From: Chthoniobacteraceae bacterium
Lineage (GTDB): Bacteria; Verrucomicrobiota; Verrucomicrobiia; Chthoniobacterales; Chthoniobacteraceae
Direction of reading: 5' to 3'
Assembly (NCBI GenBank): GCA_947471505.1
Contig: CANIWM010000065.1
Span: 1-35,842, forward strand
Length of the DNA stretch: 35,842 nt
Below the pieces are notes generated by a model that saw nothing but the letters and a program-made list of their open reading frames with translations, made no database searches and was not told the DNA's origin. The translations under genes were made by a program, and so were the position numbers. Below are positions 2,986 to 34,415 of this stretch, piece after piece; within the stretch, counting starts at the first letter, position 1; each line of letters begins with the position of its first letter.

Positions 2986-4086
2986 CTACGTATCGCCGAA
3001 GGAGATGCCGATGGCGCGGCAGGTTTCGACCATTTGGTTGTCGAGGGTGACGACCTTGAGTTTGCGGACGGCGGTGGCGATGGGCACGTCGAGGACGGAG
3101 TAGTTTTGGTAGCTGACCATGTAGCCGAATTTGCCTTCGGCGATGAGGTCCACGGCTTTGACTCCGAAGCGGGTGCCGAGGATGCGGTCGAGGGTGGTGG
3201 GGTCGCCGCCGCGCTGGAGGTGGCCGAGGACGCAGGTGCGGATTTCTTTGACGAGGGATTCGGCGTTGATGCGTTTGTCGAGTTCGCGGGCGACGGTGTC
3301 GCCGATGCCGCCGAGGCGGTATTCGCCGCCGGGGCCGGGCCGGTATTGTTCGCGGCGACCGATGGGGGTGGCTCCTTCGGCGACGATGATGATGCTGCTG
3401 GGATGGCCGTCTTCCCCGCGTTTGCGAATGAAGTCGGCGAGGCGGTCCATGGAGAAGGGAATCTCGGGGATGAGGATGGCGTCGGCTCCTCCGGCGAGGC
3501 CACCGTAGAGGGCGATCCAGCCTGCGTGGCGCCCCATGACTTCGATGATCATGATGCGTTTGTGGGCGCGGGCGGTGGTGTGCAGGCGGTCGAGAGCATC
3601 GGTGACGCAGGCGACGGCGCTGTCGAAGCCGAAGGTCATTGCGGTGGCTTCGAGGTCGTTGTCGATGGTCTTCGGGACGCCGATGCAGGGGATGCCTTTT
3701 TCAAAGAGTTGCTGGGAGGTGGAGAGGGAGCCGTCGCCGCCGATGGTGATGAGGGCGTCTATGTTGAGGCGGGCGAGTAGGGCCTTGGTCTTGGCGATGA
3801 CTTCGTCGGAGATGCGGCTTTTGTTGCCGCCGCCTGTTTTGCTGACGAAGTGGCCACGGTTGGTGGTGCCGAGGATGGTGCCGCCGTAGGCCATGATGCC
3901 TTCGGTGTTTTCGAGGGTGAGCTCCATGAACATGTCGTCGCCGAGGAGGCCTTCGTAGCCGTCTTTGAAGCCGATGACGTTCCAATCCCGCTCAGGATGT
4001 TTTGCTGCGCAGACGACGCCCCGAAGGACGGCGTTGAGTCCGGGGCAGTCGCCCCCGCTTGTGAGCACGCCGATAGTTTTTCTCAT
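2986..4086 (-). CDS. pfkA: 6-phosphofructokinase, group with Gly104/Lys124-type active site
   Basis: This glycolytic kinase phosphorylates fructose 6-phosphate in the cytosol. The 366-residue protein begins with the family N terminus (TSGGDCPGLN at 9-18). GGDGS at 116-120 places Gly at the E. coli 104 position, and PKTIDND at 138-144 places Lys at the 124 position with the catalytic Asp at 142. Gly104 is known to favour ATP, whereas Asp104 marks pyrophosphate-dependent enzymes. Lys124 is typical of the PPi-type and long-chain group, so this is a mixed signature that probably means ATP use. MGRHAGW and PEIPF complete the sugar-phosphate site. ATG4086 overlaps the TGA of the upstream carboxypeptidase gene as ATGA, which fixes the start and suggests translational coupling. 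An in-frame ATG at 4101 is less likely. Confidence 0.93.
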   Translation of the reverse strand: MRKTIGVLTSGGDCPGLNAVLRGVVCAAKHPERDWNVIGFKDGYEGLLGDDMFMELTLENTEGIMAYGGTILGTTNRGHFVSKTGGGNKSRISDEVIAKTKALLARLNIDALITIGGDGSLSTSQQLFEKGIPCIGVPKTIDNDLEATAMTFGFDSAVACVTDALDRLHTTARAHKRIMIIEVMGRHAGWIALYGGLAGGADAILIPEIPFSMDRLADFIRKRGEDGHPSSIIIVAEGATPIGRREQYRPGPGGEYRLGGIGDTVARELDKRINAESLVKEIRTCVLGHLQRGGDPTTLDRILGTRFGVKAVDLIAEGKFGYMVSYQNYSVLDVPIATAVRKLKVVTLDNQMVETCRAIGISFGDT

Positions 4087-5069
4087 TGTCTTGAATCCCA
4101 TCCTTTCATCGGACGGCCCGCAGCCGCCCATCTGTCCAGGAGGTTCCAACCGTGTTCGAGAAGGGTGCGCGCGGTGTCGAAGCGTGTGGGGGAGTCGAGG
4201 ACGACGACGGTGAGGCGGCGAGGGGTGATGATTTGTTGTTCGCCGACTTGGCGGTTTTCGGGGCGCTTGGCTGCGGTAACGACGACGCAGGGGCCGGCTT
4301 TGCGGGTGGTGCCGGTTTTCATGCCGTCGATGATGCCGCCGAGGAGTTCGTTGGTGTTTTTGAGTTGGGCGCCGCTGATTTCGCCGGTGGATGTGGACCA
4401 AGAAATTTTGCGGTCTTTTTGGGAGGTGTAAAATGAGAAGCCGCTGTGGCCGACGGCGTAGTTGGCGAGGAGGGCGACGTCGCCTGCGGTGGAGTATGGG
4501 GCTTTGCTTTCGAGGTCGTCGAGGCCGTGGGCGTTCAGGAAGCGGGTGTTGCGCATCCCGAGTTTGCGGGCGAGGGCGTTCATTTGGGAGACGAAGAAGT
4601 CTGCGGCTGCACGTTCGTCGTCGCCGCCGCCGAGTTGTTTGCCGACGTGGACGGCGATGGTTTCTGCAGCTTGGTTGTCGCTTTGCATGAGGGCGGCGTA
4701 GAGGGCTTCGCGGAGGGAAATGCGGTCGCCGAGCTGGAGGCCGATGCTGTTGGGGCTTTGGAGGAGCGAGGTGGTGGCGGGGACGGTGGCGAGTTGCCCG
4801 AGGTCTTCGCCTTTGGAGGAGGCCCAATCGAGGAGGACCATCGCGGTGGCGATTTTGGTGATGCTGCCGACTTGGAGTTTGCGGGTGGCGTTCGATGAAT
4901 CGAGGACGAAGCCGGTGGCGGCATCGGAGACGACCCACGCGGAGGCGTCATAGGCCGAAGAGCGGCGATTGCTGCCACCGAAGATCTGAGCTTCGGCGGA
5001 TGTGGGTGTGAAAAGGCCGGTGAAAATTCCGAGAACGGCAGCGGCGAAAAGGCGACGAGTGAAGTGCAT
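4083..5069 (-). CDS. Serine-type D-Ala-D-Ala carboxypeptidase (peptidase S11, PBP5/6-like)
   Basis: This periplasmic penicillin-binding protein trims the terminal D-alanine from peptidoglycan pentapeptides. The 328-residue product has an N-terminal signal peptide (basic MHFTRR, hydrophobic core, cleavage plausible after AEAQ). The three S11 active-site motifs are SITK at 69-72 (nucleophile Ser and Lys), SDN at 130-132 and KTG at 251-253. It ends about 75 residues after KTG, so the long C-terminal beta domain and amphipathic anchor of E. coli PBP5 appear to be absent or shortened. I start at ATG5069; the TTG just before it is a poorer choice. The gene overlaps pfkA by ATGA, an unusual pairing of cell-wall and glycolytic genes in one transcript. 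Confidence 0.92.
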   Translation of the reverse strand: MHFTRRLFAAAVLGIFTGLFTPTSAEAQIFGGSNRRSSAYDASAWVVSDAATGFVLDSSNATRKLQVGSITKIATAMVLLDWASSKGEDLGQLATVPATTSLLQSPNSIGLQLGDRISLREALYAALMQSDNQAAETIAVHVGKQLGGGDDERAAADFFVSQMNALARKLGMRNTRFLNAHGLDDLESKAPYSTAGDVALLANYAVGHSGFSFYTSQKDRKISWSTSTGEISGAQLKNTNELLGGIIDGMKTGTTRKAGPCVVVTAAKRPENRQVGEQQIITPRRLTVVVLDSPTRFDTARTLLEHGWNLLDRWAAAGRPMKGWDSRQ

Positions 5070-5090
5070 CAAGTGACAGAAAACGGGCGC

Positions 5091-5178: not shown

Positions 5179-5394
5179 ATGCTCCACCGCTACTTTATTC
5201 GCCTTGCCGTTTGTCTCGTATTTCTGCCGTTCGCCGGGTGTGTCACGAAGCCCACGGCGTCCAGCGACATTACGCTTGAGACGGATGAGGAGCGTGCTTC
5301 GCGGAAGGTATTTAAGAACGACTGGTTGCGGCCCTCCATTTCGCAAGAGGACTACGATTTCTTTTACAAGGGGTTATTTGGGAGCGGGCGGTAG
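5179..5394 (+). CDS. Small lipoprotein of unknown function
   Basis: This 71-residue protein has an N-terminal basic stretch (MLHRYFIR), a hydrophobic run and the lipobox FAGC. It is expected to be cleaved and lipidated at Cys20 or so and held in the inner or outer membrane. The mature ~50 residues are charged and aromatic (NDWLRP, EDYDFFYKG) with no domain I recognise. A purine-rich GGGAGGGA lies about 20 nt before ATG5179 and directly adjoins an in-frame GTG at 5158, so the true start is uncertain; ATG5179 gives the cleaner signal peptide. It is divergent from the carboxypeptidase gene and faces the palindromic repeat array. Confidence 0.65.
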   Translation: MLHRYFIRLAVCLVFLPFAGCVTKPTASSDITLETDEERASRKVFKNDWLRPSISQEDYDFFYKGLFGSGR

Positions 5395-5429
5395 GTCGTG
5401 GTATCCCCGGTTTATTGACTGCGAGGCCG

Positions 5430-5701
5430 AGTCGAGGGAGTTTTGTCCGCTCCAGAGGCAACTCTCTCCGGTGCGGACAATACTCTGTCCGTCACGGAAA
5501 AGGTTATTTCGTGTCGGACAATACTCTCTCCGCGACGGACAGAGTATTGTCCGGCTTTGAGAGAGTTGCCCCTGGAGCGGAGAGAGTTTACTCTGTTGCG
5601 GACAGAGTCCCCTCTGAGGCGGAGAGGGTTTACTCTGTCGCGGACAAAGCTCCCTCTGAGGCGGAGAGAGTTCCATCCGGAGCGGACAAAAGTCATTCCG
5701 C
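5430..5701. repeat. Tandem array of about 13 degenerate 20-21-bp palindromic units
   Basis: Units share a core like GCGGACAGAGT or its partner GGAGAGAGTTTACTCTGT and tile in 21-nt steps, for example 5576-5596, 5597-5617, 5618-5638, 5639-5659, 5660-5680 and 5681-5701. Upstream units step by 20-21 nt (5451, 5471, 5491, 5511). GGAGAG and GGACAG types alternate, giving a 42-bp higher-order unit; 5576-5617 and 5618-5659 agree at about 36 of 42 positions. Because the cores are self-complementary, several long hairpins can form. The array fills the 404-nt gap between a plus-strand and a minus-strand gene that converge. Frames stay open on both strands only because of the 21-nt period. Confidence 0.8.
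5515..5553. terminator. Near-perfect 18-bp hairpin within the repeat array; possible bidirectional terminator
   Basis: The left arm 5515-5532 (CGGACAATACTCTCTCCG) and right arm 5536-5553 (CGGACAGAGTATTGTCCG) pair at 17 of 18 positions around the 3-nt loop CGA. It lies between convergent genes, where a terminator would serve both. No U-run follows on either strand, so the role is a guess. Confidence 0.4.
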
Positions 5702-5798
5702 AGGGGAAATAGGGGCTTTTACAGAGAAGACGACCGTTTTCGCGCGCTAAACCGGTTTGTGAACAACAGGGACACATAGGAGTCTTGGCCTGTCGAGT

Positions 5799-7748
5799 TC
5801 AGCGCTGCTGGGGTTTCACAGAGAAGCGCCGTTCGTTGTAAAGCTCGGCGGCGGTTTGGAAGAGGGCGGTGGTGTCGGCGGCAGCTTCGGGGGTGGTGGC
5901 GTCGCTGGGTTCGCGGGTGACGGTATTGCGGTCGGTGCGGATGTAGCGTTCGATGACTTTGCCGAGGCTGAGGGCGATCATTTCTTTGCCCCGGAAGAGG
6001 GCGATGCTGCGGTTGTGGTTCATCAGCGCGAAGCGTTCGGCGGCGGGGGCGAGGAGGTCGCGCCCGTAGAAAACGGTGTCGTAGGGGCGACCGATGAGGC
6101 CAAGTAAAGTGGGGGCGGCGTCGAGCTGGCAGCCGAGTGTGTCGATGCGGGCGGGGGCGTTCACGGCGGCAGGGCCGAGGATGAGCATGGGGATTTCGTA
6201 GGAGAGCATGGGGACGGTCTGGCTGCCGTACACGCGGGCTCCGTGGTCGGCGACGACGACGAAGATGGTGTCTTTCCAAAAGGGCTCGGTGCGGGCTTTT
6301 TCGAAGAATTTGCCGATGGCGTAATCGGAGTATCGCGCGCCGGCTTTGTGGCCGCGTAGTTTCTCGGGGACGGTGCCTGCGGGGAAGGTGAAGGGCTGGT
6401 GGTTAGAGACGCTCATGGTGGAGATGAGGAAGGGCTGGCCGGTGGCGTGAGCGGTGCGGGCTTCGGTGAGGACGCGGGCGTAGAGGTCTTCGTCGCAGTG
6501 GCCCCAAACGGTGGAGAATGTGGGGTTTTCAAAGTCACTGCCTTGGATGAATCGCTGGAAGCCTGCGCCCGTGAAGAAGGGCTTCATGTTATCGAAGATT
6601 CCGCGTCCAGCATACATGAAGGTCGTCGAGTATCCGTCGCGGGCGAGGACGCTGGCGAGGGTCTCGCAGCCTTCGCTTTTATTGCGGGCGAGGATGGCGT
6701 CGCCGGGGAGCGGCGGGATGGAGGAGAAGATGGCTTCGAGGCCGCGCACGGTGCGATTTCCGTCGGCGAAGAGATTGGTAAAGAGCATCCCTTCTTTCGC
6801 CGCGAGGGCGTCGAGTGCGGGGGTGAGGCTGCCTTTGCGCGGTTGGCCGTCTTGGAGATTGAGGCAGCCCCAGAACTCGGAGCCGAAACTTTCTTGGACG
6901 AGGACGACGAGATTCAGCCGTGGTTTTTCCGCAGAGCCGGGGATGCGCCGTTGGATGGAGAGCGGGTCGCTAGTCCATTCTGCGCCGGGTGAGTCGAGGA
7001 GCTTGCGGACGCGCCCGAAGGCTTCTTCACGCGGGAGCGTGGGGTAGAAATGGGCGTAGTCGAGGTCGCTCGTCCAGAGGGCGATGGCACCGCCGGTGAA
7101 GCCGTTGGAGCTGAGTTCGTTCATCACGCGCTCGCTGTTGGTTTGAAACTCAATGCGCCACGCGCCGCCGAGCAGGAGTGCGGTCGCGCCGAGCCATGCG
7201 AGTAGCCCTTTGAGCCTGCGGGCGAGCGGGACTTCCGCTGCGGGCCGCACATTTGCCCAGAGGAACCAGACGATGGATGCCGCGCCGCCGAGGCTCAAAG
7301 TGACGACGGTTTTCCACGGATACATCTCTTTGATGTTGCCGCTGACTTCCGTCCAATAGTGGAGGTATTGGATGGCGACGATGTTGTAGCGCGAGGCGTA
7401 TTCGGCGAAGAAGAAGAACTCGCCTTGGAAAAGGAAGATCGCCGTCAGCCAGAAGAGCGCTGTGGCGGTGAGGAGGAGGTTGCGCTGCCAGCGGCCTTGC
7501 ACTTTGCGGCAGAGCGTCAGCCACAGGGCGGCGGGGATGAGGAGGATGAAGGCGACGGTAGTATCCAGGAGGAGGCCGACGCCAAAGACGCGCAGCCAGC
7601 TCGCGGCATCGGTGGCGGCGCTGTTTTCGATGGGGCGGAATTTCCACGCGAGCACCAGCCGCAGGAGAAATGATAGAGCGACGAAAACCCCCGCCTGTGT
7701 GAGGAGGAACGGAAGGCGCGAGGCGCGTGAATTTGAGTCGGTAGCCAT
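5799..7748 (-). CDS. LtaS-like phosphoglycerol transferase / sulfatase-family membrane enzyme
   Basis: This 649-residue protein has about five N-terminal transmembrane helices (within residues 10-200) and an extracytoplasmic alkaline-phosphatase-fold domain from about 275. Family landmarks are VLVQES at 282-287 with metal ligand Glu286, the nucleophile Thr333 in GNRTVRGLEA, and the metal-binding DHG at 501-503. In LtaS, OpgB and related enzymes this Thr carries the phosphoglycerol intermediate. Here the acceptor could be a periplasmic glycan, lipid A or a polysaccharide, and the sequence does not say which. Thr in place of Cys/Ser argues against a true sulfatase. The start lies 6 nt after the histidine kinase stop, so a two-component system and its probable envelope-modifying target form one operon. 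Confidence 0.85.
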   Translation of the reverse strand: MATDSNSRASRLPFLLTQAGVFVALSFLLRLVLAWKFRPIENSAATDAASWLRVFGVGLLLDTTVAFILLIPAALWLTLCRKVQGRWQRNLLLTATALFWLTAIFLFQGEFFFFAEYASRYNIVAIQYLHYWTEVSGNIKEMYPWKTVVTLSLGGAASIVWFLWANVRPAAEVPLARRLKGLLAWLGATALLLGGAWRIEFQTNSERVMNELSSNGFTGGAIALWTSDLDYAHFYPTLPREEAFGRVRKLLDSPGAEWTSDPLSIQRRIPGSAEKPRLNLVVLVQESFGSEFWGCLNLQDGQPRKGSLTPALDALAAKEGMLFTNLFADGNRTVRGLEAIFSSIPPLPGDAILARNKSEGCETLASVLARDGYSTTFMYAGRGIFDNMKPFFTGAGFQRFIQGSDFENPTFSTVWGHCDEDLYARVLTEARTAHATGQPFLISTMSVSNHQPFTFPAGTVPEKLRGHKAGARYSDYAIGKFFEKARTEPFWKDTIFVVVADHGARVYGSQTVPMLSYEIPMLILGPAAVNAPARIDTLGCQLDAAPTLLGLIGRPYDTVFYGRDLLAPAAERFALMNHNRSIALFRGKEMIALSLGKVIERYIRTDRNTVTREPSDATTPEAAADTTALFQTAAELYNERRFSVKPQQR

Positions 7749-20741: not shown

Positions 20742-20904
20742 GAGGCGAAGCCCAAGGAGCGGCGACATTCCTGTCGCTGTCCTAAAAGCGCGAAGCGCCC
20801 AATTTCGAGCACCGTGCAGTTTCCGAGAGCCTCACGAAACTGATTGGGCGCTTCGCGCTATGGATACAGCGACAGGAATGTCGCCGCTCCTTGGGCTTCG
20901 CCTC
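20742..20904. repeat. Large inverted repeat, 62-nt arms (39 + 17 perfect)
   Basis: The left arm 20742-20803 and right arm 20843-20904 are reverse complements over the outer 39 nt (starting GAGGCGAAGCCCAAGG) and inner 17 nt (AGCGCGAAGCGCCCAAT), with a 6-nt mismatched bulge. The 39-nt loop can form a further 7-bp stem (CAGTTTC/GAAACTG). The outer arm contains its own palindrome GCGACA-TTCC-TGTCGC. No gene is encoded. It resembles a dispersed hairpin element rather than a terminator. Confidence 0.8.
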
Positions 20905-34267: not shown

Positions 34268-34415
34268 AAGTGTCGCACCGAGCAGAAAAGTAGCCCGCGA
34301 GTCCCTTCGCGGTTTTTCACCACTCGCGAAGCGACACTTACTATTCGTGCGGCTTCGCCGGTCGTTTTTCGCCGCGAAGGGACTCGCGGGCTACTTTGCG
34401 CTTCGCTTCCAGTTT
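34268..34415. repeat. Inverted repeat element inside the efflux operon (perfect 26-nt arms)
   Basis: Arms at 34287-34312 and 34372-34397 are perfect reverse complements (first arm starts AAAGTAGCCCGCGAGTCC). A second pair, AAGTGTCGC at 34268-34276 and GCGACACTT at 34331-34339, is interleaved with the first, so both stems cannot be nested. The element fills the whole gap between the MacA-like gene stop and the ATPase start. Confidence 0.78.

Follow-up and report, generated by a model that had tools for sequence, protein, structure and literature searches.

A candidate palindromic minisatellite with a two-helical-turn step in a Chthoniobacteraceae genome

A tandem array of near-palindromic 21-bp units lies between genes of a Chthoniobacteraceae bacterium, and the question raised by this locus is what such an array is and why its step is 21 bp. 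A preliminary description, made from the sequence alone, offered four readings, namely a protein-binding array, a structured RNA, a recombination or attachment zone and an expanding satellite. We analyzed the array within its window, which is the entire contig C65 (35,842 nucleotides) of a genome of 6.07 Mb in 153 contigs, and compared it with other arrays in the same genome and in its relatives. Throughout, C denotes contigs, G genomes (G000 being the genome under study), L stretches of DNA and g genera of the family.

Structure of the array and its surroundings

The array, its internal subdivisions and its neighbors are located in the window as follows.

4083–5072, minus strand: D-alanyl-D-alanine carboxypeptidase (Peptidase_S11), left neighbor (Pfam PF00768, E = 3.2e-40)
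5180–5395, plus strand: small ORF of 71 aa with a lipoprotein-like start (LPFAGC), left neighbor if real (from sequence)
5432–5703, no strand assigned: tandem array of 13 degenerate near-palindromic 21-bp units, core GGA-N10-TCC (TRF, register fit, autocorrelation)
5446–5498, plus strand: left arm of a 53-bp inverted duplication inside the array (87% complementary to 5529–5581; pairs in the folds)
5529–5581, minus strand: right arm of the 53-bp inverted duplication (complementarity to 5446–5498)
5578–5703, plus strand: strict GGAGA/GGACA alternation with a 42-bp higher-order period (TRF 42-bp rows, unit list)
5707–5751, plus strand: conserved, hairpin-capable end module ("cap"), core CTTTTACAGAGAAGACGACC at 5716–5735 (pattern search, alignment, consensus fold)
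5799–7748, minus strand: sulfatase-family protein of 649 aa, right neighbor (Pfam PF00884, E = 2.1e-38)

TRF detected arrays of 21 bp and 42 bp from 5461 to 5690, and a register fit resolved 13 units over 5432–5703 in which all steps are 21 bp except for a single 20-bp step between the units starting at 5495 and 5515. Autocorrelation, alignment to a periodic consensus and unit composition were all computed on 5431–5703. Self-identity of the array reaches 0.58 at offset 21 and 0.56 at offset 42; across 5000 first-order simulations, the mean identity at offset 21 was 0.255 and the maximum at any offset from 10 to 63 was no higher than 0.39. The unit itself is an 18-bp imperfect dyad within 21 bp, a size within the range of about 20–40 bp for a REP/BIME palindromic unit. 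Units are contiguous, with 3 bp between the 18-bp cores, unlike a CRISPR array, in which repeats alternate with unrelated spacers of about 25–40 bp.

Folding of 5425–5745 yields predicted energies of -176 and -169 kcal/mol on the two strands, which correspond to z-scores of -11.7 and -12.9 against 100 dinucleotide shuffles each. When columns were permuted within the unit such that periodicity was kept, 0 of 60 permutations folded as well, versus 11 of 60 shuffles of unit order, so the fold stems from the units themselves, with little contributed by the order in which they stand. Unit order did matter for the fold in two related arrays of another genome, G009-C41 (0 of 60) and G009-C70 (1 of 60). 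The dyad-symmetry count of the window array was matched by 1 of 200 column shuffles. Taken together, these results establish both the array of about 13 palindromic units that the preliminary description had reported, with bounds of 5432–5703, and the self-complementarity of its units.

The left half of the array forms the inverted duplication with the middle, with a 30-base spacer between the arms and the left-half units in opposite orientation. The alternation of GGAGAG and GGACAG units with a 42-bp period had been ascribed to the array as a whole; clean two-type alternation is confined to units 8–13 in the right half and breaks down among the inverted units of the left half. Frames are indeed open on both strands, but this follows from a unit that contains no stop codon and is divisible by three in length.

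The gap had likewise been described as convergent, which holds only if the ORF at 5180–5395 is real; otherwise the array lies between two minus-strand genes. This ORF has no Pfam match and was not called by the hexamer coding model. Of the nine other genomes in the genus, two hold a relative of the sulfatase, with 69% identity in G009 and 50% in G007, and the fetched 1.5-kb flanks of both are free of any tandem array. Elsewhere in the window, positions 4–147 hold a dispersed repeat that matches the end of C59 and the start of C5 with 100% identity. It takes up the first 147 bases of the contig, which seems to be broken within a repeat. Dispersed, partly self-complementary, REP-dimer-like repeats of about 50–120 bp also occupy 20752–20894 and 34284–34402 and recur in other parts of the genome.

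Related arrays and the conserved end module

Searching with the array sequence returned matches in 4 of 57 genomes, namely the genome itself, G006, G009 and G030, where the G030 match comprises 28 bases (L013, L032) with no tandem array in the fetched DNA. Within its own genome the window array belongs to a family of four strongly diverged arrays (C65, C50, C59 and C2), and relatives are found in G006 and G009, two of the nine other genomes of the genus. The array is thus not unique to its contig, as the search of related genomes proposed in the preliminary description makes clear by locating relatives at three other sites in the genome and in two congeners.

The unit number was also compared. 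The C50-type array adjoins an aminopeptidase gene (97–99% identical) and is orthologous in all three genomes that have the gene, out of ten searched. The C50 array comprises 10 units and its orthologs in the two congeners 9 and 13, with array lengths differing by 21 bp and 41 bp; this change in copy number is that of the aminopeptidase-side relative, the window copy being without a comparable ortholog. Differences between the orthologous arrays are distributed over the codon phases as 4/3/2, 6/5/8 and 5/7/9, and those in the neighboring aminopeptidase gene as 1/2/37, 7/5/51 and 6/5/51. That is to say, differences in the C50-type array are without codon phase, which argues that it is not evolving as a protein. 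The orthologous arrays diverge by 4.5% and 8.6%, compared with 37 and 51 of 393 third positions of the gene (9.4% and 13%), and this lower divergence hints at some possible constraint. The 67 bp between gene and cap diverge by 7.5% and 4.5%, a range similar to that of the array.

A set of 58 units was compiled from the window (13), C50 (10), G009-C41 (13), G006-C100 (9) and G009-C70 (13). Positions 1–3 are G, G and A in 55, 57 and 55 units and positions 14–15 are T and C in 56 and 56, with a variable interior, where the units are non-independent through the inclusion of orthologs and the typed consensus used to fit their register itself includes the GGA/TC arms. Of the 53 steps in these five related arrays, 49 measure exactly 21 bp, and both unit orientations can be seen by eye inside one array.

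Immediate flanks of the arrays are homologous in pairs, over 46 bp for C65/C50, 60 and 170 bp for C59/C2, 80–90 bp for L090/L121 and about 310 bp for L092/L169, as if cap and array had been copied jointly. The L092/L169 match spans similar ORFs too and may represent a larger duplication. The cap is better kept than the units. Its pattern CYTYTACAGAGRARACGRNC occurs exactly at four genome sites, all of them related arrays (C65, C50, C59 and C2); when one mismatch is allowed, 4 of the 40 family genomes searched contain it, G006 and G009 among them. The window cap and the end of the C50 array share 87% identity, and a cap helix is predicted at columns 316–360 of the consensus fold. The ACAGAGA core falls within 300 bp of an array five times against 0.32 expected, where two of the five are in the window and one belongs to the repeat of contig ends. 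A similar core lies at or near the edge of congener arrays of other sequence (TCTACAGAGAA in L133 and CCAACAGAGA in L141).

The end motif was also encountered in DNA where no array was seen. G026 (L077) holds a one-mismatch copy, with no tandem array in the fetched DNA. In the GTDB collection the motif occurs in four stretches, three of them probably from the congeners G006/G009 and one in a Clostridia-named record (L081), whose fetched DNA likewise holds no tandem array. A repeat carrying GTTTTACAGAGAAAAAGCGC, present at eight places by pattern, lies near five examined contig ends (L056, L062, L068, L069 and L073), and its core resembles the array cap over a few bases.

A genome-wide class with a 21/42-bp step

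To place the window array among others in its genome, the window and 60 stretches of 20 kb (1.236 Mb, roughly one fifth of the genome; the stretches come from twelve contigs, chiefly the largest ones, and include parts of C2 and C25) were scanned by autocorrelation for periods of 10–129, with genes called by our own hexamer model and not taken from annotation. The scan returned 27 arrays, of which 17 lie outside called genes and 9 inside; the remaining array (L176, 42 bp) overlaps an ORF of low score and was assigned to neither group. Every intergenic array has a period of 21 or 42 bp (L102 fits best at 63, then at 42), and the nine arrays inside genes have periods of 42, 63, 120, 45, 69, 84, 30, 15 and 69. 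Multiples of 21 therefore describe 17 of 17 intergenic versus 3 of 9 coding arrays (P = 0.0004). Three of the 17 (window, L096 and L124) were known beforehand, because C2 and C25 were already known to hold arrays, and two homologous pairs are included (L090/L121 and L092/L169); P is 0.0008 for the 14 that remain without the foreknown arrays and 0.0015 when one member of each homologous pair is also dropped. Ten shuffled stretches contained no array at periods of 10–74. Scaling to the whole genome would give about 80 arrays.

Most unit sequences look unrelated between arrays, with some arrays paired through homologous flanks. Nor is 42 always a diverged pair of 21s, since the halves are dissimilar in several 42-bp arrays (offset-21 identity of 0.10 in L087, 0.26 in L092, 0.17 in L119 and 0.20 in L123 at 19676). 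Motif matches led to two further arrays in other periods: a GC-rich 44-bp array at L067:884–1180 (G000 C39), with no spanning frame above 130 aa, and a 15-bp array at L076.

Sampling of other genomes gave a mixed picture. Four congeners (324 kb) yielded six arrays, with periods of 21 (L128), 21 (L133), 63/42 (L141), 15 (L131), 60 (L138) and 11 bp (L140), the last being a repeat of GTTGGAAGGAG with a step of about one helical turn (L140:7604–7702, G001; spanning frames of at most 118 aa). Genus g8 (14 kb) yielded two arrays, of 21/42 (L198) and 63 bp (L199). Genus g3 (171 kb) held a single 18/36/54-bp array in a long frame, genus g5 (200 kb) a 48-bp array with frames up to 177 aa and a 12-bp array in a long frame, and two other families (100 kb) 30- and 24-bp arrays in long frames. 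Scans of g7 (48 kb) and g2 (40 kb) gave no arrays, and G024, represented by 7.4 kb with long runs of N, was not counted. On these small samples, the class is seen in g1 and g8 only.

Alignment of 21 arrays to their own periodic consensus gave 840 substitutions and 11 indel events, several of the latter at edges, versus 104 substitutions and 7 indel events in adjacent unique DNA (Fisher P = 0.002). Removal of one poorly aligned flank reduces the unique-DNA counts to 68 and 4 (P = 0.024). Spacing is accordingly better kept than sequence in the arrays, a comparison that is indicative and not exact because repeats copy their history, and whose unique-DNA count derives from one locus in two comparisons with one flank aligning poorly.

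Palindromy is a tendency of the class and not a rule. Of 30 arrays put through the column-permutation control (a set that includes homologs), 19 were equaled in folding by no more than 3 of 60 permutations. The other 11 exceeded that number, among them L118 (58 of 60), L133 (47), L124 (35), L178 (31), L102 (29) and L099 (19). The observed dyad count was reached by at most 10 of 200 shuffles in only 6 of 18 arrays, namely the window, L009 and L010, which form one family, along with L092, L119 and L123 at 19676.

Arrays of this kind also occur inside genes. The alaS gene of this genome (L087:14549–18196, G000 C1; 1216 aa) carries a 42-bp array in frame and, at a second place further along, a Y1_Tnp (RAYT-like) transposase domain that is likewise in frame; the Pfam score of this domain was just under the cut-off in one search and just over it in another. 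Among nine congeneric alaS genes compared, that of G000 carries the 42-bp array and that of G003 an unlike 21-bp array in the corresponding position, with both missing from the remaining seven, which suggests that arrays come and go at a tolerant site. The G006 gene has a few 8-bp repeats at that spot, and the Y1 domain is also present in alaS of G004 and G008. The arrays of G000 and G003 are self-complementary by eye (CCGACAGTCCTGTCGG; TCCAGTCCGACCGGA), and 2 of 60 column permutations of the former fold as well.

Nine Y1_Tnp matches were found in the genome, none of them on the contig of the window. At two of eight fetched loci (L203 and L207), a Y1-transposase gene has a strong 21/42-bp array no more than about 1.5 kb away, and there is a weak array at L205.

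L203/L099:16597–18580 and L207:1023–1740: arrays near Y1 genes (about 0.4 expected from array density, by our own estimate)

Other genes recur beside arrays as well. Related proteins with 53% identity start beside two of them (L116:6674–7657 and L207:1894–2754), and arrays L099 and L124 lie closely upstream of uncharacterized Ser-rich proteins, which have no detectable similarity to the L116 protein. L119 and L167 share another adjacent gene family (35%). A shared gene family beside arrays was rejected as a general rule, the genes at L099 and L124 being unlike that at L116.

Weighing of the readings and comparison with known systems

Among the four readings offered at the outset, the expanding satellite fits best, in that a related array changes in length and related arrays occupy four sites in the genome. 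We interpret the window array as a dispersed, hairpin-forming palindromic minisatellite held in a two-helical-turn register, for which no benefit to the cell need be assumed, and regard this interpretation as having about an even chance of being right. Single strands would fold back as hairpins during replication or repair, and slippage, template switching and unequal exchange would then duplicate, delete or locally invert units. Cap and array may occasionally be copied jointly to a new place, after which the units would drift and be homogenized within the array. DNA turns once every 10.5 bp, such that a step held at 21 or 42 bp, or two or four turns, would leave the dyads in register. This register might be kept because exchange removes units that fall out of it, or because the phase is needed by a bound protein or a supercoiled structure. 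It is no absolute register, given the 11-bp array of L140 and the 44-bp array of L067, and a shared step would also result if all arrays descended from a single 21-bp ancestor and their sequences turned over rapidly. The GGA/TC arms are near-invariant across the 58 non-independent units, a constancy that a neutral satellite would not require.

The main rival is a helically phased protein-binding array, in which a dimeric DNA-binding or nucleoid protein would occupy each GGA-N10-TCC dyad along one face of the helix; judged from the sequence, this is possible and somewhat on the unlikely side. Such a protein would account for arms far better kept than the unit interior, for the exact 21-bp steps of the five related arrays and for the TTCC-type array of similar layout by eye in another genus of the family (L198). 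Pairs within the unit show no covariation, as expected of conserved half-sites and not of pairing. However, a hairpin stem in the unit would give conserved arms too, orthologs are among the 58 units, no array lies in the fetched flanks of the sulfatase relatives in two congeners, and the differing unit sequences of other 21/42-bp arrays in the genome are such that one protein could hardly read them all. A structured RNA, with array and cap transcribed as a long hairpin RNA or terminator-like element, is weaker and appears distinctly improbable. The folds are very stable on both strands, and the consensus fold of the five related arrays contains 11 pairs changed on both sides versus 7.1 after shuffling (17 of 500 shuffles), with a covariation score of 0.141 versus 0.111 (0 of 500). 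Yet the consensus draws on only five sequences, of which three are orthologous, the alignment scored for covariation also served to derive the structure, and exchange of repeats within an array can mimic covariation. The modest signal comes from pairing between units and not from the hairpin within each, and the two strands fold about equally well. A search against Rfam gave no match at gathering thresholds. As a terminator the array is disfavored, since such arrays are not concentrated at gene ends: the gaps of the 17 intergenic arrays are divergent in 7 cases, co-directional in 4 and convergent in 3 (the window among them with its small ORF), with 3 at stretch ends.

The two remaining readings fare worse still. 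A protein-coding heptad repeat, with seven codons per 21-bp unit and ending in a GAxTEKTTVF-like peptide, would draw on the several open frames that span the array, on a frame of the form A-(D/E)-(R/K)-V-x-S-x that ends in a similar peptide in several arrays, and on other arrays within open frames of 300–427 aa (L051, L010, L118 and L123). It is nonetheless very improbable and largely refuted: ortholog differences of the C50-type array lack codon-phase bias, a 20-bp step throws the heptad frame out of phase in three arrays (window, G009-C41 and G009-C70), stop codons interrupt it in C2, and no open frame whatever exists in L096 or L167. Clear protein evidence, which the preliminary description had named as grounds against its account, is accordingly not what the codon phases of the C50 orthologs show, and the four window frames searched gave no Pfam match. 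A recombination or attachment site, or the end of an insertion sequence, is as poorly placed. The resemblance of the cap core to part of the GTTTTACAGAGAAAAAGCGC repeat, with its places near contig ends, would speak for it, but amounts to few bases. The window holds no tRNA, the array has no match in phage or plasmid records and the cap pattern none in viral contigs, which argues against an attachment zone and leaves a phage, plasmid or viral origin without a sequence match.

A bolder proposal extends beyond the window. The genus may have a dedicated system that makes or keeps palindromic arrays in exact 21/42-bp register whatever their sequence, such that roughly 80 arrays per genome would act as phased structural DNA, for example as organizers of supercoils or the nucleoid or as products of hairpin-cutting Y1/HUH enzymes; we consider this unlikely. 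Bacterial minisatellites are usually treated as locus-specific accidents of any unit length. With intergenic arrays of mostly unrelated sequence nearly all at two or four turns, and with spacing better kept than sequence, the idea that helical phase and not sequence can be the maintained feature of bacterial repeats would become testable, and the findings point to a shared DNA-level rule behind the 21/42-bp step.

Judged mainly by titles and abstracts, the open-licence literature yielded no description of such arrays in Verrucomicrobia. Bacterial minisatellite or VNTR loci consist of tandem units of tens of bases whose copy number differs between relatives. The window array resembles them in its head-to-tail units, within the range of about 10–100 bp, and through the varying copy number of the aminopeptidase-side relative; it differs in that the period is shared across unrelated arrays, the units are self-complementary and an end module is shared. 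Rickettsia palindromic elements, as their name says, are palindromes, and they can be inserted into genes without breaking the frame, which is reminiscent of the in-frame arrays in alaS and unlike the intergenic window copy; to our knowledge they are not known as tandem 21-bp arrays.

PARCEL repeats (PMC2996958) share tandem repetition, dyad symmetry and open frames with the window array, but are 75-nt units encoding a defined 25-residue motif, in contrast to a 21-bp unit with no coding signal. REP/BIME elements with RAYT transposases fall into GTAG- and CGTC-tagged families and are abundant in the verrucomicrobium Opitutus terrae, where they are also inserted in genes, according to PMC3733652, which mentions the Rickettsia elements as well. 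The likeness lies in short dispersed palindromic units, in a genome that itself holds the nine Y1-transposase matches, and the difference in a head-to-tail tandem arrangement at a fixed 21 bp with a unit sequence that varies between arrays. Within 5431–5703, GTAG/CTAC is absent and CGTC and GACG each occur once, so the palindromes do not each carry a REP foot, and in place of the many near-identical dispersed copies typical of REP there are four related, strongly diverged arrays in the genome. Finally, the tandem repeats of Borgs (PMC9879509) likewise form many arrays across one genome, in and between genes; their units are described as perfect, and only 14–38% of intergenic unit lengths as divisible by three, in contrast to the units described here, which are degenerate and mostly of 21 or 42 bp.
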